From Sanguinoderma infundibulare (lineage: Eukaryota; Basidiomycota; Agaricomycetes; Polyporales; Polyporaceae): a DNA stretch of 64,000 bases. Below, in pieces: positions 9,662-53,739 of this stretch. The notes beneath the pieces were generated by a model. That model saw nothing but the letters and a program-made list of their open reading frames with translations. It searched no databases and had not been told where the DNA came from. The stretch is from NCBI GenBank assembly GCA_032821775.1, contig JAVLRN010000008.1, positions 1-64,000 of the forward strand, given 5' to 3'. Within the stretch, counting starts at the first letter, position 1. Every line of letters starts with the position of its first letter. The translations under genes and the position numbers were made by a program.

Positions 9662-9845
9662 ATACTTCCAGCGGGTTGTCTTTTTACGCGGGTCCTCATT
9701 ACCGTAGCTCTTGAGGTCATTTGCCGGGTAAGAGCTATCTTCTCTCTTCCCATCTACCAATAGACTGAACTGGACGCTGACCTAGTACTACACTCGAGTC
9801 CACGCTCTATGAACTAAGGTCTTCCGACGGCGAACGCATCTCGCA

Positions 9846-12290: not shown

Positions 12291-15200
12291 ATGGCTGCCA
12301 CATCCCCGTTCTCGTCTCATAAACTCCTCATCGCGAACCGTGGCGAGATTGCCGTACGCATCCTGCGCAGTGCGACGCGTCTGGGCATATCCACGGTCAC
12401 AGTATACACCCGCACCGAGGCAACTGCGCCACACGTCGCCCTTGCGGACGAGGCCTTTGCACTCCGGCCCGAAGACGAGGATCCGGTCTCGAACGCCCGA
12501 GGGTATCTTGATGCGGACGCCATCGTCGCCGTATGCAAGGAGCACGGTGTGACTCTCCTTCATCCTGGTTACGGCTTCCTCTCTGAAGACCCTCGGTTCG
12601 CGCGGAAGGTCGTTGATGCCGGCGTGACTTGGTTGGGCCCCCGATCGGAGACCATTCAAGCCGTGGGACTCAAGCATCGCGCGCGAGAGCTTGCGAGAGA
12701 GGTGGAAGTCCCTGTCGTACCCGGATCGAACGGATTGTTGCAAGATGCGGACGAGGCAGTCGCGTTCGCCGAGGGGATAGGGTTCCCGGTGATGCTCAAG
12801 TCCACGGCCGGAGGTGGTGGTATGGGTCTCGTCGTGTGCAGAACCGCTGACGAGCTCCGAGCCAAGTTCTCAACTACGGAAACCCGCGCAGAAGTGAGCG
12901 TATGCGTACCTTTTAGCTACCTTCGCGTGTAACCGTAACCTCTCGCACAGACCTTATTCGACAACAGTGGACTATTCATTGAGCGATACTACCCTACAGC
13001 ACGACATGTCGAGGTCCAGGTATGCTCCATCACGTCTTTATCATCTTGCGCTAAGCCTTGGCTACACAGATATTCGGTGATGGCACCGGCCACGTGATCC
13101 ATATGGGCGAACGGGAGTGTAGCATTCAGAGAAGGAACCAGAAGGTGGTAGAAGAGGCCCCGAGTCCGTTTATGCTCAGCCTCCCTGGTGAGTAGGCTTG
13201 CGCTCATCCTCACGTCAGAAAATCGTTGTTCACGGGATGGAGCCATATGTACAGATATCCGTGAGAAGATGTGCGACGCGGCGGTTCGTCTTGCAAGCCA
13301 CGTAAAGTACGAATCTGCTGGAACCGTCGAATTCCTGGTCGACGACGCCACAGGAGGATTTTTCTTCCTGGAGATGAACACCCGCCTGCAGGTCAGCGTT
13401 CCAGAGTGTCCAAAACTCTATGAAAGATATCGTGCTGATGCGTCCTCGGAAAAGGTCGAGCATCCGATTACGGAGCAGATCAACCCAGGGCTCGACATCG
13501 TAGAGTTAATGATCCTGCAAGGCATGGCACGGCGGGACGACACGGACGGCAGGATTTTGTCCCATCCATTCTACGATCAGTCCCTCTATACGACGCCTCC
13601 TACTCGCCATGCTATTGAAGTCCGACTCTACTGCGAGAACCCTGCTGCGCAGTTCAAGCCCTCCCCCGGAGTTCTACAGCAGGTCAACTTCCCCGCCGCC
13701 GACTGGCTCAGAGTCGATTCGTGGGTCGAAACCGGGACTGCCATCACGCCTTACTTCGACCCACTCGCATGCAAACTCGTCGTGACGGGATCGACCCGCG
13801 CGGAAACCATCGCACGTCTCGCAGAGGTGTTGGATCGGACGGAGTTGTACGGCCCTCCGAACAACGTGCAGTACCTCCGGGCTATATGTGCTTCCGAGAC
13901 GTTCTGGTCTGGGAATGCTACGACGACGTTTTTGGACACGTTTCCTTTCGTACCTAGGTCTTACTTTTGGTTGTAATCTCGTCGTGCCTCGCTGACGATC
14001 ATCTCGCAGAGCGTTCACGGTGTTGAGCGGCGGGCTCGAGGCGACTGTACAAGATTATCCCTGCCGTCGCGTCGGACTCGGCATCCCGCGCAGTGGGCCC
14101 ATGGACTCCCTCGCCTTCCGCATCTCGAACATCCTCGTCGGGAATGATCCCGGCGTCGAAGGCCTCGAGATCACTGTCACCGGCTGCCGTCTCCTCTTCC
14201 ACACTGCCGCCGTTGTCGCTGTCGCCGGTGCGCCCGCGAAGGTGACAGTCGACGAGAAGGAGGTGCGAATGTGGGAACGCGTCGTCGTCCCCGCGGGCAC
14301 GAAGCTCGTTGTCGGTCCCGTTCAAGGCGCGGGCATGCGCGCGTACCTCTCTGTGCGCGGAGGGTTCCCGGAGATAACAAAGTACCTGGGCTCGAAGTCG
14401 ACCTCGCTCAGTTTCGGGGGGTACCAAGGGCGCGCGCTCGCTGCCGGAGACCAGATCGCGCTTGGCGAGTGCGCGCCTGTAGCCACGGACGTCTCCGCGC
14501 TCGCGCTCCCCGAGAGCTTGATTCCTACTTATCCGTCTGAGTGGACCATCCATGCCCTGCCCGGTCCGCAATGCGACTCGGGGTTCATCACCGAACAAGG
14601 CATCCAAGACTTCTTCACGACCAAGTGGACGGTGAGCTCCGCGAGCAACCGGATGGGCATCCGCCTCGAAGGCCCACGTATCGGTTGGGCCCGCGAGAAT
14701 GGCGGCGAGGGCGGGTCGCACCCGAGCAACATCCTCGACGACGGGTACACGCTTGGGGCGGTGAACGTGAACGGGGACACCCCGGTCATTCTGGCGAACG
14801 AGGGTCCTGACATGGGTGGGTACGTGTGTGTGTGTACTGTTGCGAGTGCGGAGCTGTGAGTATTCCTCTATCTAGAGTTTGAGAAGCGAGAGGGAGATGC
14901 TGACGGCGCGATAGGTGGAAACTAGGACAGCTGTGCGCAGGTTCTACGATACAGTTCAAGCGCGTTTCCTACGAGCAGGCAAGCGATCTTGCCCGGGCGA
15001 CGGAGCAGTTCTTGCGCGGGCTGCAAGAGGCGGTCGGGTCTTCTTCTCCGTCTCCAGCATTCTTCCCGTCATCCCTGCCCATGTGCCAAACGGCGGACAG
15101 CCATGTCGACCCTATTCTATACCAGACTCGGTCGGATCAATCTACCGGACGTCCCGGAGTAGTATGCAGGCAAGCGGGGGATTCGGCAATACTCGTAGAG

Positions 15201-16890
15201 TTCGGAGAGATGGCGCTGGACTTCTCCGTGCGCGCGCGCGTCCACGCGTTCGAGGCCGAAGTCAGACAACGCGCTCTGCCTGGAGTCTGGTCCCTCGCGC
15301 CCTGCATTCGCTCCACGATGGTGAGTTGACTCAATCCTCTCGATCCCAGTCGACTCATGCGCTTGCGAAGGTGCACTTCGACCCGCTCATCACGACACAA
15401 GCGGATGTGCTCGCCGCGCTCGTCGACGCTGAGGCTACGCTCCCCGCCAGCGTCGACTCGCTCGCCTTCCCCGGTCGGCGGATCACCTTCCCTGCCGTCC
15501 TCGACGATAGGTGGAACCGCGAGGCGCTGGAGAAGTACATGCGCAACACTCGGGCGACCGCTGCGTACCTACCGAGTAATATCGAGTATCTAGCGAGGAA
15601 CAACGGTCTGGGTGGGGCGGAAGAGGCGTTGCGGAAGCTAGTCGGCACGGATTGGGTGAGCTCGAGCGTCGAATACGTGTGCGGAGCGTTTGCTTGTTTC
15701 GCTGACTCAGTCTGTATTGAAGCTTGTGTTCGGGGTAGGATTCTACCTGGCCACCCCGTTCCTCGTGCCTGTGGGTAGAACGGCCTTCCGCTGTTCTTCG
15801 GCTGACGTCACGATATGCGCAGGTCGATCCACGCTGCCGACTCGTCGGGCAGAAGATGAACCCGTCGCGGACGTTCACCCCTCGAGTACGTATGCTCACC
15901 CTCTTCCCTGCCCGACGATACAAACACTAATGAGCGCATATCCAGGGGGCGATCGGCATGGCGGGCCTCGTCGCGGCGATATATCCGACCGAGTCTCCGG
16001 GAGGGTATCAGCTCTTCGGCCGGACGCTGTCCCCGTGGCAGACTTGGGGCAAAGGACAGGACTTCTCTCCAGATAGCCCGTGGCTGTTGCGGCCGTTCGA
16101 CCAGGTAAGGGGAAGCCTTTCGGCTTACTTGAACGGCTCTGGTTGACATGCGGCCCTGGATAGGTTCGCTTTGAGGTCGTGAGCGAGAAGGAGTACCTGC
16201 AGGTGAGCCAGAGTGCCTAACAATGACAATTCGGACCTTGGTGGCATGGATATTCAATGTACATCCACTTTCTTGCAGGCGGAGAGTCAGTTCGACGCGG
16301 GGCAGTACAAGTTCAAGATCGAAGAGCGGACGTTCTCCATGGCGGAGTACACCGCGTTTGTGCGCGGTGTCTCGGACGAAGTCGACGGGTTCAAGGAGAA
16401 GCAGGCGCTCGGCGTCGCGTCTGAGGAAGCTCGGTGAGTCCGCGTCGTAACACGATCCTCCTGGAAGTATGTCATTAATCATGACCGGGGTCGTTTAGGG
16501 AAAGGGCGATGTTCGCCGAGTGGGACGAGCGGCGCCGCAAGGAGCTCGAGGCACGACGAGTCGGGCCGCTTCCTCCGGACAGAACTGGTACGTCACCCCC
16601 GGGGTCACGGTCGATTCTTTCCCGGGCCGTTGAGAATATATCTTGCAGGAGTGGAAGGCGGCGCGTGCGTCACCTCGTCTCTGACCGCGCACGTCTGGAA
16701 GATCACATGCGCCGTCTGGGACGTCATCAATTCTGCGGAGGACGTGCTCGTCGTGCTCGAAGCGATGAAGACCGAGGTGAATGTCGAGGCGGAAGAGGAG
16801 AACGTCGGGCGGCAGGTGGTCGGCTTTGGGCAAGGCGTCCGGGAGGGTGCTACCGTGCGAGCGGGTGATCCTTTGGTCTACTTGGAATGA
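12291..16890 (+). CDS. Urea carboxylase, stand-alone (biotin carboxylase-AHS2-AHS1-biotinyl domain)
   Basis: Carboxylates urea (or guanidine, in some relatives) to allophanate using ATP, bicarbonate and biotin. Fifteen exons, all GT-AG with agreeing phases: 12291-12893, 12951-13019, 13070-13187, 13255-13391, 13455-13957, 14010-14819, 14915-15320, 15371-15655, 15723-15770, 15823-15885, 15946-16104, 16164-16202, 16279-16433, 16499-16587, 16649-16890; 1241 aa. Domain order: biotin carboxylase ([16 protein letters not shown]-grasp loop [21 protein letters not shown]), AHS2/KipA-like ([13 protein letters not shown]), AHS1/KipI-like ([32 protein letters not shown]), and a biotin attachment site EAMKTE close to the C-terminus. 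It lacks the N-terminal allophanate hydrolase (amidase) domain of yeast Dur1,2, so the second step must come from another gene. An upstream in-frame ATG at 12261 is an alternative start. Intact; decayed copies lie at 25590-26660 and 62560-62880. Confidence 0.93.
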
Positions 16891-21061: not shown

Positions 21062-22751
21062 ATGTCCGTCTCGCTCAATGCATCCTCCTTCCAAGACTCG
21101 CAATCAACGTTCACGGTCCCGTACAACACGCTAGGCGCCATCTCGACGGAGCTGAACAATGTCCTCAGTGATGGAATAGGCAGGATGAGACTGAAAATGG
21201 TCGCGGTGCTGTTGTCGACGATCTGTATGGGTGAGTGAGCGCCTTGATGCCGATGACATGACGCTCTGACTGACTAGTACTCGCATCTCCACGCAAAGCA
21301 ATATACACCATTTGTGCCGCCTATGCTGCCCGAAAACTAATGTCAGTCGCCTAATCTAATACTTCTCTCTGGCTCACACCGTGCTGCAGTGACAGGGGGT
21401 TGAAGGGGAACCGGCGAAACCTTATCTACGCTACTGCAGCAATGTACACGGCAGCGGTCGTGTGCTGGATCACGGGACTAGCGGGACAGTTCAAAGTATT
21501 CCGCAACATCGAAGCGTATTTGTCAACTGCATACTCGTTGGTACCTCCCATGGATTGTTTCCACCTCCAAACAGCGGATGGGGTATCGGTACCTGCGTAT
21601 TGCACACTAATCCCTGCCTCACCTGAGCCCCGGACGCTCGCGAGTGCACAGTGGGATTCGACACAAGATTGCGTGGGCACGATGACCCTGACATTCAACG
21701 TATGTTGCTCGAGACTTCGTCAGGAATACCAGTGTCCAGTACTCAGCTTCGGGCAGGTTTTCATTGGAGATGCCATCGTTTGGTGGAGAGTGTGGGTCTT
21801 GTGGGATAAAAACCGCCTGGTGCTCTTCTCATTTTGCATCCTCTTGCTCGCCACTCTAGGTTCGTCCATCCTTGCTATTTGTGCGTCTTGTGCTCATCCA
21901 GGATCCCGCCACTAGTGTTTGGTTTCCTGGAGACGTTACATGGGTGTGTCAGAGCGCCGTCTCTACCAGTCATTCATGATTTCTCCCTGGTCTTCGGTCT
22001 ATGCGCTATCGGCCTGTCGCTCTTCTCGAATACAGCAGCGACGTTGCTTGTTGGCTACAAAGCTTGGTGAGCGTTTGAGTTTCGATGACATAATAACCTG
22101 CTCATCCGTGTCGGACCCCACAGGAAGCACTGGCAGATCACTAAAGGAGCATTCACCCATATCACTCGAGTACAACGTGCCTTGACGCTGTTGATCGAGT
22201 CCGGGATCGTGTACTGTCTCCTCTGGGTAACGTACTGTCCTCTTTGTGTCACTAAAGCTAAAGCATCGCTGAACTGCGAACGTTTGTCAGGCAATAGTTC
22301 TCTCTGGACAAATAACATCGATGGTCTACCCCTTGTCGCTCACCTCAGATCAGAAGGTTTTATCTTGGCCGAACGGCGTGCTGTACTTCACGGTCGGGTG
22401 TCTCGTCACAGTCGTCGTAAGTCTTCGCGTCGATATCCACGATGCAGATCTATGGTCTCATTGACGGTCTCCGGGCAGGGCTTATACCCGACGGTCATCA
22501 TCATTCTCGTCGCACTCGACAAGTCTGAAGTCGAGAGACAGTCCATGGCGCACTCACTCCCTGTCATGCGCACAATTCCGTCGTCTCCTTCGCAGGTAGA
22601 GGTCACCGCGTCGGACATCACCTCCATGGCGGATGCACGCATGAGCCACGAGGGGCGTCCACATTCGGTGATTCGTATGGCCACGTCTTCGCCTCTGAAC
22701 AGCTCTTCTGCCCGGTTGAGCGATGAGACTGAGCGAGTGGAAAAGGGGTGA
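21062..22751 (+). CDS. 7-TM membrane protein, family copy A
   Basis: Eight exons with GT-AG introns of 40-60 nt; product about 430 aa starting MSVSLNASSF. Seven hydrophobic segments can be read: the MRLKMVAVLLSTICM and AIYTICAAYAARKL region, NLIYATAAMYTAAVVCWITG, GDAIVWWRVWVLW, LFSFCILLLATL, LVFGLCAIGLSLFSNTAATL, LTLLIESGIVYCLLW, and YFTVGCLVTVVG with YPTVIIILVALDKSE. The tail is Ser/Thr-rich and cytoplasmic. The W-x-R-x-WVLW motif after the third span is shared with a large uncharacterised Agaricomycete membrane-protein family; substrate or ligand is unknown. Frame and splice sites look intact. Its 3' end faces an HNH-gene remnant, as at the other copies. Confidence 0.8.
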
Positions 22752-26689: not shown

Positions 26690-26940
26690 TACTGTTAGCA
26701 CTACGCGAGCCTGACCGCGGTGACGAAACGCTGTTTCCAGCGCGTGTGCACCCATGCCTCGCCGTTTCGGAGGCTCCGCGAATAATCCAGGAAAGAGCCA
26801 AGGACCGCTGGACGGCTCATCACCCCAGTCCTGTCTACTTGGAGGCCCACACGGCGGAAGATATGTCGCCGTGCCAGGGAACGTATCCTTGAGATGATGC
26901 GCGCGAGCGAGTCCCGCTCGCAGCGGTCGCCATGGGAAGA
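26690..26940. repeat. Shared ~200-bp block found at three loci
   Basis: Contains GCCGTTTCGGAGGCTCCGCG and a segment with CGGCGGAAGATATGTCGCCG. Reverse-complement relatives lie at about 52657-52870 (full) and 62410-62600 (with an internal deletion). In each case it lies 5' of a 7-TM gene. No function is evident; probably a relic of a gene. Confidence 0.6.
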
Positions 26941-26944
26941 TTGG

Positions 26945-27451
26945 GGTTTGTACCCGACGGTTATCATCATCCTCGTCGCCCTCGACAAGTCGGAAGTCAG
27001 GAAGCAGTCCGTGGCGCGGTGTCAAGCTTTGCAGGTAGATGTCACGACCCACACCACTTGCATGGCGGATGCGAACACGAGCGACGGCGTGCGTCTTCAC
27101 GGATCCTCTGCCCGGTTGAGCGACGGGACGTTCGACGAGGCCGAGCGTGCGGAGAACGGGACGGGTCTTAGGCTTGGAGAGGAGACTTTGACCAAGGCGA
27201 TGGTGGGCCCGGGAGAGACTGTGCACGTTTTAAGACTGCCCCATAAAGGTTCACCGCATTACGTGTATTTCGTTCGTGCCTTGCGCGGTACCCGAGATGG
27301 ATGTCAGCGTGTTTGCAGCGACGATGGCAGCCTCAGATCGCACTTTGACAGGGAGGGCACAACGAGCCAGAGTGCGAGTCGCAAGTTCGGACTGACTTGG
27401 ACGTCGACTGAGGTGCACGGGATCAGGATGCTCGAGGCGACGGAAGGCTGA
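26945..27451 (+). pseudogene. 7-TM family copy C, last exon only
   Basis: Starts GLYPTVIIILVALDKSEV, the final exon of the family, and continues through TCMADANTSDG and KAMVGPGETVHVL as in copy H (60302-62109). All upstream exons are missing. The inverted counterpart still has the whole gene, so a deletion here removed about 1.7 kb, joining the shared block at 26690 to the last exon. Confidence 0.8.
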
Positions 27452-27886: not shown

Positions 27887-29608
27887 ATGTCCGTGTCACT
27901 CAATGCATCCTCCTTCACCAATGGGCGGTCAACGTTCACACTCCCATACAATACGGTGGCCGACATTTCGACAGAGTTATACAATGTCGTTGATCATGGA
28001 CTAGCTCACATGGAGGTTGCAATTGTCTCCGTGCTATTGTCGACGATCTGTATGGGTGAGTGTTCAACATTCTGTCGATGCTTAGGCGCTCTCAGAGTCT
28101 CTGTATCAAGGGATATACAGCATTTGTGCGGCCTATGCTGCAAATAAACTGATGTGGGTCGCCTAATCTCGTAGTTTTGCGTTGCTCATCGTGTCACTCA
28201 GTCGCCGGGGTCTGAAGGGGAGCAGGAGATACCTTCTCTATGCTACCGCTGCAATGTACTTGGCGACCATTGTCGCCTGGATGGCGGCGTTTGTGGAAGA
28301 GTTCAAAATATTCCACAACATCAAAACGTACTTATCAGCCGCATATTCGCGAGTACCCCCTCCGGATTGTTTCGGCTGGAGAGAGGCGCAACACGTACCT
28401 GGGTATTGTACAACGATCCCTGAGTCACCTAGCCCAGGGATGGTCGGAGCTGCATGGGATTCGACATACACCTGTGTAGGCACGACAAGCCTTACATTGA
28501 ATGTATGTTACTCGAGACTTTGTCGCGGATACGCACTCAAACTCAGACAGGTTTTCATTGGCGATGCCATTGTTTGGTGGAGAGTTTGGGTCTTGTGGAG
28601 CAAGAACCGATCGGTCCTCTTGTCGTGTTGCTTCCTCTTGCTCGCTACTCTAGGTCCGTTCTTCGTCGTTATTTCTGTGCCTTGCGCTTATGGCTTCAAC
28701 TAGGGATTTCGTTGGTTGAGACGGTTGAGTCGTGTTTGGATTCCTCTTCTTTCATTTACATTTCCTCTGGGATCAACGGGCCGTGGGCATTTTTCGGACA
28801 CGACTTCTACGGTCTATTGGTCATCAGCTTGTCGCTCTTCTCGAACGTAGTAGCGACATTACTGGTTGGCTGCAAAGCTTGGTGAGCATTTTCATGGTTA
28901 CTAGGCTTCTCGTACCTGATGGCCGGACTCCACAGGACGCACAGTCAGATAATGAAAGAAAGCTTCTCTAAAATGACTCAAGTGCAGCGTGCACTCGCGG
29001 TGTTGATCGAGTCCGGGATCGTGTACTGCCTCCTCTGGGTAACGGATCCTCCGCTCTGTACTACCGAAGCCGTACTGAACTATTATCAGGCGCTAGTTCT
29101 ATCTGGCCAAATAACCTGGTTCATCTACTTTCCTTCGTCGCCATGGTCTAACGCTATGCGGTACTTTACGTACGGATGTCTCGTGGCATTTGTCGTAAGC
29201 TCCCGCCTCCCTATCTGCAGCGCAAATGTATGTACTAATTTACCGCGGCTCCCTCGGGTCAAACAGGGTTTATACCCGACGGTCATCATCATCCTCGTCG
29301 CCCTCGACAAGTCCGAAGTCGAGAAACAGTCCATGGCGTACTCCCTCCCTGTGGCGCATGCGATCCTGTTGTCCCCTTTGCAGGTAGAGTTCACGACCGA
29401 CACCAGCTGCATGGCGGATGCGAGCACGAGCGAGGACGGGAGTCCACTTTCGGTCATTGATATCGCTATACCCTCACCTCTTAACGACCCTTCCACGCGG
29501 TTGATGAGCGACACCACGTTCGACGAGGCCGAGCATGTGGATAAAGGGGAGTATCTCAGGAGAGCAGAATCTGACGAAAGGGATGGTGGGAGACGGCGCA
29601 CGTTTTAG
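27887..29608 (+). CDS. 7-TM membrane protein, family copy B
   Basis: The same eight-exon architecture as copy A with every junction identified: exon 1 ends at 28055 (ATG G|GTGAG); the membrane segments AAMYLATIVAWMAAFV, GDAIVWWRVWVLW, LLSCCFLLLATLG, LVISLSLFSNVVATLLVG, VLIESGIVYCLLW and YPTVIIILVALDKSE are all present. The tail ends DERDGGRRRTF. No stop or frameshift, so likely functional. The 3' end converges on HNH copy 1. Inverted relatives are copies E and G. Confidence 0.8.
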
Positions 29609-29797: not shown

Positions 29798-30850
29798 TCA
29801 ACGACTCCTCGGGGCGCGACTTCCAAGTCTGGATTCTGATTCGTCAACCGCCACAGCGTACTTCCTCCACCGTTGAATGTCTTCGCGCGCTAGGAGCAGT
29901 TTGACGGTGTAAAACTCCCTCGCGAGCACCTCGTTGCTCGCGATGCCGTGCACCGCTGAGTGACAGAGCCTATCGGAGGGGATCGACGTCTGTCAGCCCA
30001 CCCTGAGGACTGCTTGGGAATTCAGGAGGCACGCACCGACATAGCCACGCGACGGAGTTGAGCATCGCCTCGGGATGCCGCTTCTTCTTCAGCACTTTGT
30101 CATGCACCTCGCGCGGAATGAGGTGGTGGTACGTGAGTGGGACCTCGCGCTCGCAAATCTCGCACTCCGCAGTGCGTGTCTTGGACCATACGGGGGGTGG
30201 CGCGCATGCCTCGGTAACGTAGGCCTTGAGCACCTTCCGCAAGAATGCGACCGCGGCGTCTGGTTCGTCCGCGAGCCGGCAAGAAATGAGGGTGTCTGAG
30301 AAGGCAGTCGGTATGGCGTCGAGGGAGAGGTCGTCCACGTCTGGCACGTCGTCGCGGCTTTCGTACGTAGCATCTCGTAAGGCCGGGGGCAGGCATGGCC
30401 AGATCTCTTCTGCGAGATAGGACGTGAAGTCGTCGAGAGTGCTGGACTCCTCCTGAGGGTTTGAAGGTGCGAAGATGTCTGGATCTGAGACATCAGCAAA
30501 AGCGCAACCTGCCTGCAAGGCTACACTGCTTAAGCGCTAGGGGGCTATGCTAGATTTCGCAGGATCCGGCCCCACCGTGTAGGACTCTGTAGGAAGTCGT
30601 CGGATACGATGAAATCCTGGAGGGTTCAGCTGTATACGATTAATCATTGTAGAGCCCTGTAATGCTGCCGCCGGGTGATAGTAATTATTACAGAGCAATG
30701 CGACAGATACCATCAATCACTGCAATGTGATGCAATTCATCCTCCGCGTGTGGCCAATTATTGCAGAGCAATACAGCACGTATAGCCCGCTGCCCGGGAG
30801 AAATACTTGGCAAATATTTAGTGCAGTAGGACCCGGGCGCACAAGAGAGA

Positions 30851-30858
30851 TATAAAAG
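30851..30858 (+). promoter_or_regulatory. TATA box inside the element
   Basis: TATAAAAG about 90 bp before the first ATG codons of the Lys-rich frame (30941 and 30946). Copy 2 has the same motif at 55000. In copy 3 the matching site reads TATGAAAG. Confidence 0.55.
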
Positions 30859-30945
30859 AGAGCGCCAGACGTGGGTCCACTGTCACATGACCAGGCTGTC
30901 CCCATACGCGCGGAAGCATCTGATTCTCTCTCTCTCCCCAATGAC

Positions 30946-31510
30946 ATGCCCCCTCGACTTCCCCATAAAACGACCCCCGCGCTCCCCATCAATCTCAGAG
31001 TCGCTTCTTGACTCCTTACATCCTCGATCTCGCAGCCCCGTCAAAAATGTCCATCAGGAACGGCCTCACTCAGACGAGGGGTCGCGCAGCGACGAGCACC
31101 AACCCGACGAGGCCCGCAAAAACCCCAGCCTCCCCAGCCCGCACCCAAGAAGGCGGCAGCAACCCCGGCCAAGAAGGCATCAACGACAATGAAGAAAACG
31201 GCGGGCCGAAGGTTGCGTCGAAGGCTGCTCAAAGTAAGTCCTCGATTATCCCGCCTCTGGACTCTAGTGACGGCAGGGAGGCGGATAAGAAAACCCCAAA
31301 TGTTACGGGACATGGTGAGGGTAGGGCGGAGGATGGACAGGATGAGGGTGAGGGTGAGGACGAGGACGAGGACGCGTCCATCCAGCTCCTTTGCAGGCCG
31401 GATCACAGAGCCAAGTGAGTCCTTCATTGTCAGCTACTGTGTACGTGGCTGTATGCGCGCATATAGTGAGGATACCTGGGCGTACCTCGGGATCGAGGAA
31501 ATATATTAGG
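30946..31510 (+). pseudogene. Lys-rich element gene, decayed copy (element copy 1)
   Basis: Matches the first exon and part of the second exon of the gene in copy 3 (34521-35816). The frame opens MPPRLPHKTTPALPINLRVA and stops at a TGA where copy 3 has TGG. Further on, acidic sequence DEGEGEDEDEDAS matches. An intron with GTGAGT...CATATAG follows. The next exon stops at TAG (31507) where copy 3 has CAG. After this point similarity to copy 3 ends and aminotransferase sequence begins. Confidence 0.7.
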
Positions 31511-31689
31511 ACGCCCGCATTCTCGGCCGCCATATGACCGAGTTCTGCGATTTGGGGAAGGACTCGGCACTGAGGGCCGCGCTATCCTTCTGAGTACTGC
31601 TTCTCTTCCTCCGCCCTTGCCCGGCTCCTTGCGAGCACACGAACGCTGGTCCTGAGCATCGTCCCATATTCGTCCAGGTCACGACTGTC

Positions 31690-32620
31690 CGCAGCGCGCG
31701 CGGACGAAGCACAGTGAGCCGTCCTTGAATTCTTCCGCGCCCCGCCAGGGTACACTGTCATCTTCACGGCCAACGCCAGCGACGCACTCAAGCTGGTAGG
31801 AGAGTCCTTCTCCTTCACCTCCGGCAGCACATACGTCCTCGGCGCGGACTCGCACAATAGCGTGCACGGCGTCCACCAGTTTGCGACTGCTCGCGGCGCA
31901 CAGGTGTGCTACATCGAGTCAACCGATGTTGGCGGCGTGGACATCGCAGAGGCAAAGGTAACGTACATGTTCCCGCGATCCTGCCATCTCCGCGCACTAG
32001 GTCATCGGTATCCTCTCATGTCCCTCTGGGATCCCGGTCTACCCTGAACCACCTAATAGGCCGTCCTCGGGCACCACCGCCCACACGGCCGCCGCGCACC
32101 GAGTCTGTTCACGCTCACGGGCCAATCGAATGTATCGAACACAAAGAACACCCTTTCCCTCATCGAGTTCGCCGCGTCACAAGGCTATCCACGCTGCTCG
32201 ACGCCGCCGCGCTGGCAAGGACATCGGTGATCTCGCTCGCCGACACACCTGTGGACGCGATGGCGATCAGTTTCTACAAGATGTTCGGATTCCCGACTGG
32301 CATCGGCGTGCTGGTCGCGAAAGAGCCATTCCTGGCGCGCCTGGAGCGAGCCTGGTTCGCTGGCGGCACCGTCGACATCGTCCAGGCGCCTGGCGAAATC
32401 GTGACTATGGCGGCCGAGATGCACGAGCGTTTTGAGGTGCGCGTCCGCGTTTGCGATCCCATCCTTGGGAGGCATTATGGTTATTCTCAGTGGCGGCGGT
32501 GGCCGCGGGCGAGTGCGAGTACGAGAGCGGGTTTGGCTGACTTTGGCGCGTTTTGCACTCCAGGACGGCACGATCTTGACCTCCTCCCTGGCTACGCTGT
32601 CTGCTCGCTGCCTTGATGGC
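31690..32620 (+). pseudogene. Aminotransferase class V (PLP, Mo-cofactor-sulfurase-like) fragment
   Basis: Exon pieces read AVLEFFRAPPGYTVIFTANA, LGADSHNSVHGVHQFATARG, an intron, SLFTLTGQSNVSNTKN, then, in a shifted frame, LLDAAALARTSVISLADTPV, SFYKMFGFPTGIGVLVAKE and WFAGGTVDIVQAPG. FYKMFGFPTG marks the usual Lys-PLP region. There is a TGA just before the first piece, a one-base loss after QGY (about 32181), and the 3' part is lost. The same frameshift is in element copy 2. A host gene fragment captured by the element. Confidence 0.82.
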
Positions 32621-33483
32621 TCTCTCTGTCCTCCTCGCCTGTTCTCATTCTGACTGTCGATTCGCAAGTGCCTCGGTCTCTGTTTGTCTCGCAGCCACAC
32701 TCTCTTGCTGGTGATGTCTACGGTCCACAAATCGCGCGTTCGCGCGCTCTCTCTTTTTGTAATAGATGCCGTGATGTATTGTTGCTCCGCCCGCCAAAAT
32801 TGATGATTTTGACCATTATTAAATTCCGTGTGCGTTGCATGGCCATGGGCGAGCACCAGAGAAATGTCTGCCAGGGAGCCCACTATACAGCAACTACAGC
32901 CATTCACCGTACACTACCATACGCCGGGGGACTATTGTAGTCCTCTACCATATCTTCCCATTAGTCCTGCATGGTGCTACAATATATCCCCATTGATCCT
33001 ACATGGCACTACAAGGAGCGCGCACCTATCCGACAGGCCACTACAGTATTTCCCCCGGCTCCGGCGAAATCCTACAGCGCCCTGGAGCACGCTCAGCTGT
33101 AAACTGTAGGGAATTAGCGTGTCCGCCGGAAGGCTGCAGAGCCAGAATCTAAACTGGAATATCGGGTGAGGCACCTACTAACCACTACAGAGCTAGTTGC
33201 ATTATTACAGGTCTTTCTAAACCTCGAACCCAGTTTGCTGATGGAGAACACGGCGGGCAAGGGAGTCCTTGAAAGCCGAGAACTGCTGCGATTGCGCCAT
33301 CTTGCGAATGATAAGATACTGAGCATCAACAGCCTGAGCGAAGGGCAAAAGTCTACCTTTCGAATGTCGGTGTACTCAAGGTTGAGCGCAGTCAAACTCT
33401 GTATGGGAATGGGAAAGGGAGGGGTCGGCTACGGCAGGTTATGAAAGATAAAAATGACCAAAATCAGAGACAAAGTTCCTGCC

Positions 33484-33547
33484 GGACGGATCAAACCCTG
33501 ATGAGCGGTGAGCCAAGCCGTGGCGTTAGCCACTACGCCATATGAGA
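33484..33547 (-). pseudogene. tRNA-Glu-like relic
   Basis: The minus strand reads TCATATGGCGTAGTGGCTAA (acceptor edge, A box and D-arm as in tRNA-Glu), a CTCAC in the anticodon region and GGGTTTGATCC in place of the B box. Stems no longer pair. It lies between HNH copy 1 and the WDR48-like gene, where tRNA-Glu would be expected from the other loci. Confidence 0.5.
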
Positions 33548-33633
33548 ACAACAAAAGTCATTGATTATCTATGTCCTTCTGGAAAGAAAGCTAGTGCGCT
33601 CCCGCTTTGACCGGGCGGGGTCGCCGTGAATGT

Positions 33634-36271
33634 CATCAGCAAACCGGGTTTGAGGTTTACAAAGACCTGTAACAATGCATGTAGCTCTGTAACCATCGTA
33701 GTGGTTAGTAGGTGCCTCACCCGATATTCCAGTTTAGATTCTGGCTCTGCAGCCTTCCGGCGGACACGCTGATTCCCTACAGTTTACAGCTGAGCGTGCT
33801 CCAGGGCATCGTAGGATTTCGCCGGAGATGGGGTAAATACTGTAGTGGCCTGTCGGATAGGTGCGCGCTCCTTGTAGTGCCATGTAGGATCAATGGGGAT
33901 ATATTGTAGCACCATGCAGGACTAATGGGGAGATATGGTAGCAGCATATAGGACTGATGCGGAGATATGGTAGAGGACTACAATAGTCCCCCAGCGTATG
34001 GTAGTGTACGGTGAAAGGCTGCAGTTGCCGTATAGTGGGCTTCCTGGAGGGCATTGCTTTGGTACTCGCCCACGACCATGCAACGCACACGAAACTTAAT
34101 AATGGTCAAAATCATCAATTTTGGCGGGCGAAGCAACACTACATTACGGCTTCTATTACGAAACGACAGAGAGCGCAAGCATGCAATTTGTGGACTGCAG
34201 ACATCACCAGAAAGACAGCATGAGACTGCCGCAGGCGCGAGCTCGAGTTTGGCCAAAGGCGCCGGGTCCATACTAGAATAACCCGAGGGGTCACGAGGTT
34301 CGTGTTAAAGTTTCCTTTGCGGAGAGAACGAGGTAGTATGCACTGCGTTCTGTGATCGGATGCGGCTGCTCGATGAGGCTCCTCCATTTCCGAACAGGGT
34401 TGATGGGGCAGTTGGCCGGGGTGTACCCTTACTCGCGAAGTTTTGCTTCAATGCTAGAGTGGGTTGAACCACTCAGAGCAACCGAGCGACATTCAAGTTA
34501 GGTGTTGGAACCAACCTCGCTCACTGAGCTCTCTTCGCCGCCTTAATTGCTCCTTTCCGCTCGCGCTCGGAGCGCTCCACCCAGGTCATCACCGCGAAAG
34601 CATGCTTGTTGGAGAAAGGCGGCATCCTCATGAGTGCAACATGAAAGGCTGATTCCGGTGACTCGGGACTCACTGCCTGCCTCTCACGCACATACGCAAA
34701 CCACCCCTCCAAGTTGATCCTCTCGAGCGCAGCGCGGGGAAGCGAGTGCAGGAAGATGCCTCGCGAACGCGATTTCTACGACCGACGTCGTGTGAAAGTT
34801 GCATATTGAAGATGTCCAGTCAGCGTGACAGTGCTCACCTTCCTCTGTGTCACATGGGACGAGCTTTAGCACGAGGCACTCCGCAGGATAAAACACGTTG
34901 GTACGCCCGTACAGGTGCGGACCGTCCAAGATGCTGCATGGGAAGAGAGAGAGATTGAGATCAGTGAGCAATGGATATGCATCACCACCTACTTCTCCAA
35001 GTAGCATTCAGCACAGAACCGGACCCTCATCGCGTGGTCGGTGCTGTACCCTCGCTTGCTTCCGCATGCCTGCTGCAACATTTAGTAATCAACTGAGGGA
35101 AAGGATGCATCAGGAATATACAATGCGATGACTCACAAAACAGTGGCGGCCAAATACGAGCATCGTGTGAGCGTGGCCGCCTCACGCGCCATGGCGCGCT
35201 CGCTGGTCTGGGCATCCTGACATATCTTGTCAATCCCGAGGTACGCCCGGGTATCCTCACTATATGCGCGCATACAGCCATGTACACGGTAGCTGGCATT
35301 GGAGGACTCACTACTTGGCTTTGTGATCCAGCCTGCGAAGGACCTGGATGGACGCGTCCTCGTCCTCTCCCCCGTCCTCATCCTGCCTGTCCTCCGCCCT
35401 GCCCTCACCATGTCCCACAACATTTGGAGCACTCTCGTCCACCTCCCCTTCATCACTAGAGTCCAGAAGCGGGATAATCGAGGGCTTACTTTGAGCAGGC
35501 TTCGGCCCGCCGTTGGAGGCAGCCATTTTCTTCGTTGTCATCGACACTTTCTTGAGCGTGGTGGGCGTTTTTTTTTGGCCGCGGTCGGTGTTTTCTTGGC
35601 CGGGGTTGATGCCGCCTTCTTGGGTGCGGGTTGGGAGTTCGAGACTGGGGGTTTGGCGGGCCTCGTGGGGTTGGCGCGACCCTTGCGTCTGAGTGAGGCC
35701 GTTCCTGATGGACATGTTGGACAGGGCTGCGAGATCGAGGATGAAAGAGGCCAAGAAGCGACTCTGAGATTGATGGGGAGCGCGAAGGTCATTTTATGGG
35801 GAAGTCGAAGGCGCATGTCATTGGAGAGAGAGAATCAGATGCTTCCGCGCGTATGGGGACAGGTTGGTCATGTGACCGTCTCCGCTCGCCAGCATCCGGC
35901 GCTCTCTTTCATATCGCTCTGGTGCACCCGGGTCCTACTGCACTGAATATCTGCGAAGTATTTCTCCCGGGCTATACCTGCTGTATTGCTCTGCAATAAT
36001 TGGCCGCACGCCGAGGATGAATTGCCTCACTTTGCAATGATTGATGGCATCCGTCGGCACAGCTACATTGCTCGGTAATAATTACTATCACCCGGCGGCT
36101 GCATTACAGGGCTCTACAATGATTAATGGTATACGGTTGAACCCTCCAGGATTCCATCGTATCCAACGACTTCCTACAGAGTCCTACACGATGGGGCCGG
36201 ATCCTGCGAAATCTGGCATAGCCCCTTAGCGCTTAGTGTAGCCTTGCAGGCAGGTTGCGCTTTTGCTGATG
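33634..36271 (-). mobile_element. CATCAG element, copy 3 (2638 bp, inverted)
   Basis: Ends are CATCAGCAAACCGGG at the left and the complement of CATCAGCAAAAGCGC at the right, so it lies opposite to copies 1 and 2. Flanked by GT on each side (33632-33633 and 36272-36273). End regions match copy 1. The interior differs: it has the full Lys-rich gene in place of the aminotransferase fragment. The right end lies 50 bp before the WDR48-like start codon. Only 390 bp separate it from copy 1. Confidence 0.82.
34521..35816 (-). CDS. Lys-rich / Cys-motif protein carried by the element
   Basis: Unrecognised family. Minus-strand exons: from MRLRLPHKMTFALP at 35816 through a Lys/Pro/Ala-rich stretch, an acidic run (GEDEDAS), then YEDTRAYLGIDKI...SERAMAREAATLTR, a Cys-bearing part (YSTDHAMRVRFCAECYLEN, FYPAECLVLKLVPCDTEE) and a helical charged tail ending KRAQ. 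The first exon needs a one-base correction at a run of nine A (in the 35571-35581 region, seen as T on the plus strand); either a sequencing slip or a true frameshift. One donor (GTTTTG) is unusual. It could be the element's own gene or a captured one. It is not similar to any transposase I can name. Confidence 0.45.
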
Positions 36272-36321
36272 GTTGAGCTCATCGTCCGCAACGTCCACCT
36301 CGCCCGCTCGACCCTCTCTTC

Positions 36322-39300
36322 ATGGCGCCTGCACGGCGTCGGGTGTCGTACGTGATACCGCCCCCAATCGACCCTCCACCGCGACTACAGCTACCTCCGC
36401 ATGGCGTCCCTCGCAATGGCTCGATAGGCCCGATTCTCATACCCATTCAATCCGCAGGTCCCCCTCCCCCTCCGACGCCCAAATGGGCTCAGCATCCGCG
36501 ACATCGACTCGGAGTCTCTTGCATCGCGCTCGATACGTCGACGCAGCTCGTTGGACGCGCCTCTCCAGAAGGCATCCTCTACACCGGCGGGCGGGATGGG
36601 ACGCCTATCGCTTGGGACCTGGGTGTCCCCATGAAGAGGCGTGCGCAGCGATACGGATATATGGGCAGGAGTCTGAGGAGGTGGGAGGTGATGACGAACT
36701 GGTCGGACGACGTGATCGAGGAGGAGGCGGAGGAGGGGGACGAATACCGGAGCGATGGCGACGTCTTGGGTGAGGTTACCGGTAGGGCGCGCCGCCGTAT
36801 ACCCACCGACACCATGATACCTTACGAGGAGCAGTGGGAGACGGACATAGACGCATACCAAGCTCTCAAGGTGCGTTCCAATTCCCTACTGCGTCCAGCG
36901 TTCGTCGCACCAACAGGCCTCACTCGCCACCCTCAGGCCCACCCGCCAACATCCCATTTCCGCCAAGCTGTACAAATGCACTCGGACTGGATCAACGATA
37001 TGATATTGTGTAATTATAATCAGACACGTACGTGGGCTCCACTATATCCTCGATTACAGTTCTTGACTTTTTCGCAGTTGTAACCGCATCTTCCGACGGG
37101 ACAATCAAAGCCTGGTCGCCCCACACCCATAGTCATACCACTCCTCTTCATGAACCCACCGTTGTTGGAACCCACTCCGACTATGTTCGCTGCTTGACGT
37201 ACTGGTGTGTGCTATCCCCGTTGCCTTATCACACGCCTCACATCCTGTAGCCGTGAACAGCAGTGGTTTGCTTCTGGATCATTCGACCGGACCATTAAGC
37301 TCTGGGACCTCGCATCCGCGTCGCATAGGACGGATTCGCTCATTACACTCCATGCCCCCGAAGGCGGCGGTCCCAAGGCATCCGTTTACGCGTTAACAAC
37401 TGATCCGTACGGCTCTATGATCGCGTCTGGATCGCCAGAGCGCGTCATTCGAATGTGGGACCCCAGGTCAGGCAAGCGAATAGCAAAGCTCGTCGGCCAC
37501 ACGGACAACATTCGTGCCATCCTCATGTCCGAAGACGGCAAATACGTGCGTCCTGTCGTGCTATGGCGCGCACAGTGTCCGTCTGACCGTCCGCCAGTTG
37601 CTTACAGGCTCTGCGGATGGTACGTATAATCAGTTTGCTCCAGATCAGGCACCTGAACGTTTCGGCAGCCTCCATCAAACTCTGGTCTTTGTCCTCTCAG
37701 CGCTGTCTGCATACGTTCACGCACCACACAGAATCTGTCTGGTCCCTCTTCTCATCGCACCCCGCGTTGGAGGTCTTCTATTCTGGTGATCGTTCTGGCT
37801 TGGTCTGCAAGGTCGACGTCGAGGGCTGTGCGGATGTCGCAGAGGGTGAATGTTTAGTGCTCTGCCAGGACTCGGGCTTGGATCGACCTGGAACGTCTGG
37901 CTCAGGTTCTGAGGGCATCAACAAGATCGTTGCTATGGACGACAACGTGCTCTGGGCAGCGTCGGGCAGCTCAAGCATCAAGCGATGGCGCCTTCCTCCA
38001 CGACGCGCACTCCGGGCCACAGCTCTGAGCGCGGAAGGTGCCACTGACAGCCCGGTCTCTTCCCCACCGCCCTTGGATTACCTCCCTGGCGCCCGCTCGA
38101 AATCTCCCGTACGTGACTCCTCTCTGTCTCAGCAGAACTCGCGGAGCAGCAGTCCCCTGGCATCGCGCTCTCCTCGCGTTTCGATCGCGCCCTCGCTGAC
38201 CTCAAACAACGGCGGGACGACGGTGGACCTTGAAATGGGCCCCCAACGCGAGGGCGAAGACACGTGGTACGGCATCCCCCTCGAGAGCCTTGTCCGCCTC
38301 ACTTCGCCCAACGACTCCGGCTTCGGCATGGTCGGGCGGTCCCTGCGCGGACACGACCCCGAGATCGCGACGCTATACTCCGCTGCGTCTGTGATGAGCG
38401 TACCACGCATGGTGCGCTCCCCCGTCCAGAACATCTTCAACCAGTCCGCGCCAGGGGCCATGCGCAGTCCGAGCCCATTTAAGAGCGACACCCTCCGGTC
38501 GCAGACGCGGCTGAACGAGGAGAGCCAGACGCTGCACGCGCCTCGCCCGCGGGTAGCGTTCGAAATCCGGGAAGTCGCGGCGGACGCGATCCCGCTCCGG
38601 CTCGAGGCGGACGAGGTCATCCACGGCGAACACGGACTTGTCCGTTGCGTGATGCTCAACGACCGCGTTCATGCCCTCACTGTCGACACCGCGGGCGAGG
38701 TAGCGGTGTGGGACGTCGTGCGCGGAGTGTGCCTCGGGCGGTACCCGTGCGAGGACGTCGCCGCGGCGAGCTTTCGCGGGAGCGATAGGAGCGGAAGCAA
38801 TGCGGGCGGGGACCCCGACTCTCCCGAGACGCAGCGGAGCCCGCGAGAGGCGCTGGAGACGGTGCGCGAGCGGATCGAGGGCGAGGCGGTCGTGCCGTCG
38901 TGGTCCGTGGTGGACACGAAGACGGGGGTGTTGACCGTGCATCTGGGCGAGAAGTGCTTCGAGGCCGAGATCTACGCGGACGAGGCGGGGTACGGGCATG
39001 AGCGGCAGTTTGGCGAGGAGGCGCGACGTGAGTTGCTCTTTCCTGCAGAAGTGAGAGGGTTTTGGCTGACGTCGGAATCAGTGAATATCGGCAAGTGGGT
39101 GCTACGCAACTTGTTTTACGGTTTCATCCGCGAGGAGCAACGTCAGGCCTCACGGCGGGCCCGAGAACATAGCTCTCACGACATATCCCAGCATCGGTTA
39201 CAGCGCGGTACCGCGCCGACTCATGTCGAGTTCAACAGCGCGAGTACATACGGGAGGAGTCGCGCCTCGTCAGACGTCTCCGTGCGTAGCTCGTCATCCG

Positions 39301-40708
39301 CCGCGACAGGTCCACGAAGCGCCACGATAATATTCTCCCCGAACATGCTTCCCGCCATTTCGCCCACCATGTCTGCGGCACCTCGTTCGTCCCCGCTCAT
39401 GACACCCTTGATTCCGCTGCACGGCGGTCTGCGCGATTCCGGACTGCCTCCTATTCCTCAGTCACCCAACCCTTCAGATGCACCACCCGTGTTGCACGGT
39501 TCGCGCGAGAGCCAACGATCGGACACCAGCGCGACAGCCATACCCCCTTCGGCCTACGGGACTGCCGGAAACGGCGACCACTTCTCACAGAAGGGCAGCA
39601 GCCGCCGTCCGTCCGTCTCGTCGCCAGGTGGCCCGATCACTGACGATTTCTCTGGGTGGGGCGGGAAATCGACGTCGTCGGTCAGCTCTGGGTCGGACAC
39701 GGCGCCGATCCAGACGCCGACGACGCCGACGATGGGGAGCCTGATGGGCAGGCTGAACAAGGCGTTCTCGAAGACGAAGCGGCAGGCGAGCGAGAGCGCG
39801 GGGACGACGTCGCAGGGTAGTGCTGCGGCCAGCACGCAGGCCGAGACGGTGGTTGGGGTGAGTGTCCTTCGGCCTGGTTCTCCAGCCGTTTTTTTGGTCT
39901 GACGACATTTATAAACTTTTCAGGATCCCTCGCCTCCCGTGAAAACGCCAGCACAAGCCCTTCTTGCAGGACCTATCACTCCGCCGCCCTCGAGCGAAGC
40001 GCCGAGTCTGCCGATCCCGCAGAACACCTCTGTCGTCATCTCGGAGGAGGCGCCATCGGGTTGGCTTACGCTGTACCGTGGACACGTCTCGAGCACGGCG
40101 ATGGATGCGAGATTACTGGAGGAAGTGATGCCGCTGTGGTTGCTTGAGTGTGTGCTGCAGAACAAGACGGCAACAGTCCCTGTCACGAAGGTCAGCTTCG
40201 TGTTGCTGCCGTTTAAGGAACCGGATGTCGAGCCATTGCCGGAGTTGTTGAACACGTATGTCTCCGTCGTCTGGTCTCGAGGGTCAGTGGCTAATATCCG
40301 TGCCCATGGTTGTAGGCAGCAGTCGAAGCTCACGGCGAGTCGCTTCCTGCGCGTTCGAAAGCTCACCGTTCACGTACGTCCTTGCCATCATCTATCCCGA
40401 CCTCGCCTTCAATGCTGACGGCCGTCCAGGTCCAGGACAAGCTCGAGAAGATCGCCAACGGGGGCGGCAACTCGCCAGTGACGCCCCGATCGTCGATCGA
40501 CCGCCGCTCGACGCACTCCTCCCGCGTGCGCGAGCACGACTCGCGCCCGCGGGCGGACGAGCAGTACGAGATCCTCTGCAACGGCGTGCTCCTCCCGCTC
40601 GAGATGACCCTCGCCGCCGTCCGGCAGTACGTCTGGCGGCAATCGGGGGAGCTCGTGATGCACTACCGCCGTAAGGCCCCCGTGCATCTAATAGTTCACG
40701 CGCAGTAA
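36322..40708 (+). CDS. WDR48/Bun107-like WD40 protein
   Basis: WDR48 (UAF1; Bun107 in fission yeast) binds and activates ubiquitin-specific proteases. Nine exons, phases all consistent: 36322-36870, 36937-37027, 37078-37204, 37251-37545, 37598-37619 (22 nt), 37669-39857, 39924-40255, 40316-40373, 40430-40708; 1313 aa. N-terminal WD40 repeats include [54 protein letters not shown] and LLTGSADASIKLW. A long Ser/Pro-rich middle follows. The C-terminus has the DUF3337-type part ending [20 protein letters not shown]. Start [14 protein letters not shown] agrees with family relatives. No defects seen, so probably functional, although an element ends 50 bp upstream. Fragments of its 5' end occur at four other places in the window. 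Confidence 0.9.
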
Positions 40709-43206: not shown

Positions 43207-43450
43207 GTGGAAACCTTGATTGTAGATAGGGCTATCAGGCGACATCGCGCAAGGAGATCCAGAGGGATGGAACAGACCTGCACCTCGGATTGGATGGGTA
43301 TGAGAATGGGGCCTATCGAGCCATTCCGAGGGAGTGGAGGTAGCTACGCCGTAGCCGCGGCGGAGGCTCTGTTGGGGACGTTATCACATATGGCACCCGA
43401 CGCCGTGCACTGTGCGCCGGCGAGGTGGACGTTGCAGACGGTGAGCTCAT
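43207..43450 (-). pseudogene. Fragment of the WDR48-like gene 5' end
   Basis: The reverse complement contains GCAACGTCCACCTCGCC, GCACGGCGTCGGGTGCCATA and the block corresponding to the first 40 codons of the intact gene (RRRV...YVI, then EPPPRLR). Start codon and frame are lost. Confidence 0.7.
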
Positions 43451-43504
43451 CGGCGCTTGCAGTGTCCCTGCAGGAACATTAACCTTCCTTACGTAATCAA
43501 GCCC

Positions 43505-43590
43505 TATATGTATGGCAATTTTGCGTCGCGGCTAAAGGTGCCACCTCTTTGAAGACTGTCCGGGGTTCGATTCACCAGCTGGGAATACCA
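43505..43590 (+). pseudogene. tRNA-like relic
   Basis: A GGGGTTCGATTC B-box match and a GCGTCGCGGCTAAAGGTGCC stretch resembling a D-arm, but no cloverleaf can be formed. It sits between a WDR48 fragment and an HNH gene, the place taken by tRNA-Glu relics elsewhere. Confidence 0.35.
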
Positions 43591-43734
43591 GGCGTTGGGT
43601 TTTCTTTTTTGTCTCTCAGCCCGGGATCCGTCGACTTTGACTACGCTCGGTATCGACCGCATTGAAATAGGGTAGACCCTTGTTCTTCGCTCAGTCTGTT
43701 GATGCTGAACGATATCCATCTTATCATTTGCAGG

Positions 43735-44442
43735 ATGGTGCAATCCCAGCAGTTCTCGGCTTTCAAGGACTCCCTTGCCCACCGTGTCCTCTCGGATCCA
43801 GAGATTTCGCACCTTCCAACAACACACTCGACGACTTCACATCCTATCTCGTAGAAGAGATCTGGCCATGCCTTCCCCCGGCCCTACCAGAGGCTACGTA
43901 CGAAAGCCGCGACGACGTGCCAGACGTGGACGACCTCTCCCTCGACGCCATACCGACTGCCTTCTCAGACACCCTCATTTCTTGCCGGCTCGCGGACGAA
44001 CCAGACGCCGCGGTCGCATTCTTGCGGAAGGTGCTCAAGGCCTACGTTACCGAGGCGTGCGCGCCGCCCCCCATGTGGTCCAAGACGCGCACGGCCGAGT
44101 GCGAGATTTGCGAGCGCGAGGTCCCGCTCACGTATCACCATCTCATGCCGCGCGAGGTGCACGACAAAGTGTTGAAGAAGAAGTGGCATCCCGAGGCGAT
44201 GCTCAACTCTGTCGCGTGGCTATGTCGGTGCGTGTCTCCTGAGTCTGCAAGCAGTCCTCAAGGTGGGCTGACAGACGTCGATCTCCTTCGATAGGCCCTG
44301 TCACTCAGCGGTCTACGGCGTCGCGAGCAACGAGGTGCTCGCGAGGGAGTTTTACACCGTCGAACTGCTCCTAGCGCGCGAAGACATACAGAGGTGGAGG
44401 AAGTACGCCGCAAAGCAGCGCTTTGGGATCCGTCGGGGATGA
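43735..44442 (+). pseudogene. HNH-nuclease-like gene copy 2, uninterrupted but damaged
   Basis: Begins MVQSQQFSAFKDSLAHRVLS and so spans the site where copy 1 carries the element (GTC CTC TCG GAT here). Relative to copy 1 one base is missing soon after (GAGATTTCGC for GACATCTTCGC), which shifts the frame. The rest is open: CEICEREVPLTYHHLMPREV, LNSVAWLCR, an intron (GTGCGT...CGATAG), then PCHSAVYGVAS and a tail ending RFGIRRG. The last HNH histidine is tyrosine here (SAVY against SAVH). Both changes suggest loss of activity. Confidence 0.75.
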
Positions 44443-53115: not shown

Positions 53116-53470
53116 TCATTGTAGGGTAGTGGGGCTGGAGCCTGGGTGGGCACCAGGTGCACGCAAGAGCCACTCGATCTGCCCGCCCGGCCGCCCTCGA
53201 ACGTGAAGGATGCTCTCGGGCGATGCGCGTTGGGCGAGATGGTTGGACGTGTCGAGGGCAAGTCGATAAGCTCCCAGTTGATGTCGCGGATGCCAAACCC
53301 ATTTCTGTGTTGGAGGCGGAGGGGAACCTGTGGCCCATTGAATGGGTACGAGAATCGGCCGGCCTATCGAGCCGTTGGGAGGGACGCCATGTGGAGGTGA
53401 CTGCAGTCGTGGCGGAGGGTCGGTCTGGAGTGGTGTCACGTAGGACATCGGACTGACATGCAGAGTGAGT
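53116..53470 (-). pseudogene. Fragment of the WDR48-like gene 5' end
   Basis: The minus strand reads MSYVTPLQTDPPPRLQSPPH, GSIGRPILVPIQ and LALDTSNHLAQRASPESIL. This is the best-preserved of the four fragments. It is colinear with codons 8 to about 110 of the gene at 36322, with the frame kept but substitutions throughout, and ends in unrelated sequence. Confidence 0.8.
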
Positions 53471-53739
53471 CGAGTGGATGAGGCGGACGTTGCGGACGAC
53501 GAGGTCAGCGCCGGTGTCCCACGGTCGAGGCGGGATCCAAAAGTAGGCAGTAGCGCCGGTGCATGTCATCCCAATATGGCCATATGGCCTACCGGATAAT
53601 ATTGCCGGTCTCACGCCCAACAGGCCGTGCCTCCGTGTAATTCTTGTCTCTCAGACCCTCTCTGCTACAATATACGACTCCGCACCTTCGACTGCCTCGA
53701 AACACGGACGTAGGTCTCGTCCTCTGCTCAGGTTGTGGA

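Follow-up and report, generated by a model that had tools for sequence, protein, structure and literature searches.

How does an element that codes for no transposase come to stand three times in one stretch of fungal DNA, and what does it carry in place of that gene? The question is raised by a window of 64,000 nucleotides (the whole stretch of DNA that was analysed) from the basidiomycete Sanguinoderma infundibulare, in which a first-pass annotation had defined three copies of a mobile element and had read no transposase in any of them. The absence of a transposase stands, but the annotation overlooked the fragments of captured genes inside. The copies and the duplications at their flanks are as follows (here and below, places outside the window are given by contig and coordinates).

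30491–33243, plus strand: copy 1, very probably a nonautonomous PlavakaB-type element, 2753 bp, with exact 10-bp inverted ends; blocks match the long element A2 of contig C4
33634–36271, minus strand: copy 2, inverted and with different cargo, 2638 bp, both ends exact
54647–57408, plus strand: copy 3, 2762 bp, right end CATCAGCAAT
30489–30490, unstranded: target-site duplication GA, left of copy 1 (flank reading; empty-site alignment)
33244–33245, unstranded: target-site duplication GA, right of copy 1 (flank reading; empty-site alignment)
33632–33633, unstranded: target-site duplication GT, left of copy 2 (flank reading)
36272–36273, unstranded: target-site duplication GT, right of copy 2 (flank reading)
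54645–54646, unstranded: target-site duplication AT, left of copy 3 (flank reading)
57409–57410, unstranded: target-site duplication AT, right of copy 3 (flank reading)

The 10-bp inverted ends are CATCAGCAAA. The coordinates, the exact ends and the different 2-bp duplications are read in the sequence as the first-pass annotation gave them, except that the end matching at 9 of 10 positions, which it assigned to copy 2, belongs to copy 3 (57399–57408). The chance of three 2-bp flank matches, put earlier at about 1 in 4,000, comes to 2.8e-4 (about 1 in 3,600) when recomputed with the dinucleotide frequencies of the window. Aligned within the window, copies 1 and 3 agree from end to end at 97% identity. 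Copy 2, in the opposite orientation, has the ends and part of the interior in common with them: its end blocks align at 86–94% and a further block at 82–83%, and its middle is unrelated. Alignment of the window found no homology among the three copies beyond their ends, and the flanks differ from copy to copy, which agrees with the earlier claim of a mobile element inserted on separate occasions. The 10-mer with one mismatch is not rare by itself (6 in the window against 3.5 expected); the case is carried by pairing, homology and genome-wide counts.

One of the insertions lies close to a possible gene. Within 36277–39902, a reading opens with an ATG at 36322, 48 bp after the duplication that follows the end of copy 2 at 36271; a second reading comes after it at 37587–39902, with a weak WD-repeat match (PF25173, 24.6 bits, far under the cut-off of 154). 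Copy 2 may sit in a promoter or leader.

In the genome as a whole (48.9 Mb, 87 contigs), CATCAGCAAA occurs 384 times, as compared to 47 for the reversed control, and the longer ends typical of the family, allowing at most 3 mismatches, occur 64 times as left-type and 58 times as right-type, with none in the reversed controls. The search proposed by the first-pass annotation, for inverted pairs with 2-bp flanking repeats, was fruitful: family ends form 49 inverted pairs within 12 kb, and among the 18 of these with both flanks read, 11 have an exact 2-bp duplication, 2 an exact 3-bp duplication instead (cgt and tcg) and 5 neither. Flanks shuffled among the elements gave a mean of 1.6 duplication matches and a maximum of 8 in 20,000 shuffles. 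Two of the five pairs without a duplication have identical flanks and probably represent one duplicated locus. Other subfamilies that end in CATCAGCAAA show a 2-bp duplication in 9 of 14 pairs and none in 5, a count that omits loci L011 and L013 and in which L009 and L010 stand for two units of a single tandem array. L013 had appeared to be a large element (8.1 kb between inverted CATCAGCAAA, with an AT duplication), but its flanks belong to inverted arms of 1.75 kb that are 89% alike, and L011 joins the ends of two subfamilies; both were rejected.

Two arrangements elsewhere in the genome are of a different kind. At C1:128675–164370 (L002–L010), pairs of CATCAGCAAA spanning 184 bp stand at intervals of 11,889 bp, with no matching 2 bp in the flanks of the two that were read and with L004 equal to L006 over 3 kb; an Rfam search, which also included L034, found no match to this 11.9-kb unit in L002 or L006. 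At C6:3079311–3084655 and again at C16:342227–347565, a spacer of 13 bp separates two family elements of opposite orientation; the flanks, as far as they can be read, are the same at both places, and this pair is a composite that has been duplicated or moved as a unit.

The family also has long members, listed here with a third long element from another subfamily and with the part of copy 1 that descends from their interior.

C2:2146989–2157534: long element of 10,546 bp, duplication TC, same family-specific ends, PF18759 match of 40 bits
C4:1353778–1363609: long element A2, 9,832 bp, duplication CT, family-specific ends, PF18759 match of 37.4 bits
C3:3769702–3779317: third long element, of another subfamily, 9,616 bp, duplication CC, with a Plavaka match
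30878–31548, plus strand: in copy 1, remnant of the second-gene side of the long elements (A2 6283–7050), upstream of the capture point

The C2 and C4 elements have four main blocks in common, 91–95% alike. Matches between the window copies and the long elements fall in three parts of the latter: bases 1–393, a block in the middle and about the last 700 bases; in copy 1 the blocks correspond to A2 positions 1–393, 6283–7050 and 9114–9832.

PlavakaB families are described as having duplications of 2 or 3 bp and termini CATCA..TGATG, and Plavaka as grouped with EnSpm, Mirage, Chapaev and Transib (Kojima 2025, PMC12730594). The termini CATCA..TGATG are found on the three window copies and on both long relatives; the duplications are those counted above (exact 2-bp in 11 of 18, exact 3-bp in 2, neither in 5); and the C2 and C4 elements, with the same ends, match the Plavaka transposase profile PF18759 above its cut-off. 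From these features the three elements very probably belong, as nonautonomous members, to a family of cut-and-paste DNA transposons of PlavakaB type, and are kin, with internal deletions, of the elements of about 10 kb. By termini, duplication length and transposase family, theirs is best assigned as a new nonautonomous family within the known PlavakaB group. The first-pass annotation had suspected kinship with CACTA/CMC elements, which holds, and had thought that the family may be new; the terminal type CATCA..TGATG is already published, and novelty is confined to a family within PlavakaB. With PlavakaB as described, the family shares termini, duplication lengths and, in its long members, the transposase; it differs in that the window copies have captured gene fragments and no transposase, and in that the three long members examined have a match to DUF6698 and none to TET/JBP. 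In Marasmius oreades, autonomous Plavaka elements were defined by PF18759, the ends of Plavaka elements were given and nonautonomous DNA elements were sorted by ends and duplications (PMC8290104), a scheme that, compared by description only, resembles the one used here.

One rival reading would place these elements in CACTA/EnSpm proper and have them moved by a CACTA-type transposase. CACTA/EnSpm elements have CA..TG ends, short duplications and short subterminal repeats, and each of these is found here. The terminus, however, is CATCA and not CACTA or CAC, the duplications are mostly of 2 bp (3 bp in 2 of 18), and the long copies with the same ends match Plavaka, so that this reading is very unlikely.

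As for the subterminal repeats, 13 of the 14 instances of CTGTA/TACAG in copy 1 and 13 of the 15 of CTACA/TGTAG fall within its terminal 750 bases (first 350 and last 400). In the C2 long element no 5-mer is more enriched at the ends than CTACA, which has 12 of its 26 occurrences in 7% of the element's length. For CTGTA, a motif chosen after looking, the other elements show weaker enrichment at their ends: p is 0.003 for copy 2, 0.009 and 0.001 for the long elements and 0.05 for L020. By analogy, these repeats may bind the transposase, for which the subterminal repeats of CACTA elements provide a precedent.

What the copies hold between their ends is, in large part, sequence from elsewhere in the genome.

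31552–32575, plus strand: piece of a host gene captured by copy 1, with exons and introns of a class-V aminotransferase (cysteine-desulfurase-like), 93.4% identical to C2:1795659–1796688
55703–56726, plus strand: copy 3's version of this fragment (positions taken from copy 1 by adding 24151)
34241–35168, minus strand: the captured fragment of copy 2, unlike that of copies 1 and 3; donor-like place C8:2478586–2479585

The first of these occupies positions 1062–2085 of copy 1 and matches PF00266 in two reading frames. At the donor locus (L042) the gene continues on both sides of the captured piece, and its joined exon peptides cover positions 2–369 of the 371 in PF00266 (E 4.9e-28); they resemble cysteine desulfurases, in PDB matches as well, and reach no NCBIfam cut-off. 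Judged by eye, the start of the piece falls in seemingly non-coding sequence ahead of an exon and its end 12 bases inside a later exon; the introns come with it, so its source was DNA rather than spliced RNA. When 17 loci were compared with copy 1, the alignment crossed the left capture junction in 13 of them, as it does in copy 3; the other four are the donor itself, L039, which has the piece but where the alignment breaks at the junction, and two loci without the piece, L045 and L049. L036 and L037, which match identically, are probably one duplicated locus. Because 13 of the 17 loci and copy 3 align across the junction, the copies are most simply explained by one capture followed by amplification. 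C-to-T or G-to-A differences from the donor, with direction unpolarised, affect 25 of 282 C/G in CpG and 11 of 383 others in copy 1, and 29 of 282 and 14 of 383 in copy 3, an excess in CpG as would be expected if the copies were CpG-methylated.

One might suppose the reverse, that the element had the aminotransferase fragment from the first and that the supposed donor gene derives from it, since the direction of transfer is undated. That is highly improbable, given that the piece at L042 lies within a longer gene spanning almost all of PF00266, that copy 1 matches the 4-kb L042 locus nowhere else, and that the cargo of copies 1 and 3 finds no match in either long element at E 1e-3.

The donor of the second fragment is less sure. 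The cargo of copy 2 appears in another element (C8:491589–495153) and at C8:2478586–2479585 (92% and 85% in two blocks), near which the search for left- and right-type ends listed none, and the latter is likely a host gene. Apparent GT..AG introns were seen by eye in the copy at 492 kb of C8. Two pieces of the cargo tested against Pfam gave no match; the cargo may resemble basidiomycete F-box proteins.

Capture from a gene with retention of inverted ends invites comparison with Pack-TYPE elements of plants, which are nonautonomous DNA transposons able to take up coding DNA and shuffle it (PMC8903248). Copies 1 and 3 have these features (nonautonomous, inverted ends, captured gene sequence), and copy 2 has them too, the nature of its donor being less certain. 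The elements differ from the plant ones in their fungal host and Plavaka ends, and their captured pieces are known from sequence alone. Helitrons of Pleurotus ostreatus also capture gene fragments in a mushroom-forming fungus (PMC4289320), but these move by rolling circle, while the elements here have inverted ends and duplications. Among the matches listed in a literature search on Plavaka with gene capture or nonautonomous elements, only PMC8290104 mentions Plavaka; a broader search on gene capture gave Helitron, plant and other work among the matches listed.

The first-pass annotation predicted a helper element elsewhere and proposed looking for a longer relative coding for a transposase, and the C2 and C4 elements answer that description: they are the probable helper for the window copies. 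When joined, the exons of the C4 element add up to 1,179 residues, interrupted by four gaps of which two exceed 500 bases, and the joined core matches PF18759 positions 105–318 of 325 (89.7 bits, E 2.8e-25, cut-off 26.3), with a CPRC stretch inside the predicted core. Single pieces give modest matches. The six stop-to-stop pieces of the transposase strand chosen first had no match in Pfam, and of seven single pieces compared with PF18759, one exceeded the cut-off at 40.7 bits, one fell just under it at 23.8 and five had no match. A wholly new superfamily, to which one might be led by window copies without a readable transposase, is still less probable than the alternatives above, in view of the PF18759-bearing elements with the same ends and the published PlavakaB signature.

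The C2 long element carries on the strand opposite the transposase a reading that matches PF20414, or DUF6698 (E 1.6e-5, 25.1 bits, cut-off 23.7). Clustered at 5 kb, the genome has 13 loci of PF20414 and 20 of PF18759. Of the 13 PF20414 loci, seven have a Plavaka locus no more than 10 kb away, against 0.1 expected, and all seven adjoin the weaker Plavaka loci (7 of 10, at 23–63 bits, one under the cut-off), as compared to none of the ten stronger loci (94–358 bits). By coordinates, inverted ends enclose both genes at C2:2146989–2157534, C4:1353778–1363609, C3:3769702–3779317, C10:559968–570699, C4:1978028–1989679 and C10:2287882–2309228, which are six of the nine DUF6698 loci with a Plavaka match within 16 kb (two of the ends have one mismatch). 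The remaining three have one end (C4:366–371 kb) or none among those listed (C8:273–279 kb and C14:122–137 kb). Two further DUF6698 loci lie in shorter family pairs without a PF18759 match (C15:265660–268446 and C21:102648–105434), and two have no Plavaka match on their contig (C5:3863 kb and C23:2 kb).

From proximity in one genome, DUF6698 may be a companion transposition protein. In Spm, TnpA stands beside the transposase in a comparable way. The literature searched makes no mention of DUF6698. A larger picture, toward which I lean somewhat less than away, is that this PlavakaB lineage is a two-gene machine that needs DUF6698 and repeatedly captures and spreads fragments of host genes, a fungal counterpart of Pack elements. 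TET/JBP was considered as a companion gene and rejected, none of the genome's matches falling inside the three long elements examined. Those matches to the TET/JBP dioxygenase profile PF12851 number 29, of which 22 exceed the cut-off (one only with its neighbours), and are perhaps carried by other transposons.

The state before insertion can be seen for copy 1. Its joined flanks, with the element removed and one GA kept, match two places in the window, both on the minus strand.

43671–43973, minus strand: paralogous empty site of copy 1, 85% match, one GA and no element
53782–54000, minus strand: second paralogous empty site of copy 1, 79%, the match reaching 15 bases beyond the junction

With the element in place the sequence is GGATCTGAGA [element] GAGAACACGG; in the paralogues it is GGATCCGAGAGGACACGG and GGATCAGCGAGAACACAG, which in alignment have the length of the joined flanks and a single GA. 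The comparison with empty sites proposed earlier upholds the duplication at copy 1, with one GA in two paralogues as against two in the filled site. Slippage at this GA-rich site keeps a small possibility, and is disfavoured because two separately diverged paralogues agree. Eleven flank pairs were made, of which L039 (its flank holds another element end) and L015 were left out and L025 offered only 46 bases; the eight searched genome-wide, whole or nearly whole, were copies 1–3, L034, L041, L020, L019 and L017. A match elsewhere spans the junction for three of the eight (copy 1, L034 and L041) and none was found for the other five, including copies 2 and 3. By coordinates only, the joined flanks of the copy at C16:486384 find a spanning match at C6:3248605–3248995 (96%), and those of the copy at C17:78261 find two, at C17:167381–167763 (79%) and C17:151913–152200 (81%). 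For copy 2, the paralogues in the window are too diverged on the left flank to span the junction; for copy 3, the genome search gave no match spanning the joined flanks. Segmental duplication or chance in place of transposition is hardly credible: the neighbourhood does have paralogous repeated segments, and some copies elsewhere lie in duplicated loci, but the flanks differ for each copy, homology stops at the ends and the empty site has one GA.

The region around copies 1 and 2 (flanks within 30291–36473) has two diverged inverted paralogues in the window, at 43282–43973 and 53312–54000. Elsewhere in the window, readings at 12183–12932 and 13996–14859, within 12183–15778, have biotin carboxylase N-terminal, ATP-binding and carboxyltransferase A/B domains and are perhaps one urea-amidolyase-like gene. 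Two minisatellite-like readings at 3621–4355 and 6109–6780 (minus) consist of short repeated units (e.g., CPRGHKGGVSARTQ). Three readings at 22089–22751, 26786–27451 and 28886–29608 have GLYPTVIIILVALDKSEV in common and form a locally repeated gene family, of which the one reading tested had no Pfam match.

The preferred account, of nonautonomous PlavakaB-type elements, can be put as follows. Elements of about 10 kb, of the CACTA/EnSpm-Mirage-Chapaev-Transib clade, would have a Plavaka transposase gene on one strand and, on the opposite strand, a gene for a DUF6698 protein. The short copies would be their internally deleted relatives, keeping CATCAGCAAA and several hundred subterminal bases rich in CTACA/CTGTA, and would probably be mobilised in trans by the transposase of the long elements, leaving duplications of 2 and sometimes 3 bp. 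In place of the lost interior the lineage would have taken up genomic DNA, part of an aminotransferase-V gene in copies 1 and 3 and another fragment in copy 2, presumably through DNA repair or template switching.

A seemingly orphaned repeat family has in this way a probable helper, and one Plavaka family can be viewed with its long coding copies, short copies, empty site and donor gene side by side. Most deserving of further study are the captured exons and the possible DUF6698 companion, the family by itself being of modest interest. Elements of this kind can move host-gene exons to new places in a fungal genome, and their association with DUF6698 offers a first lead on what that domain may do.
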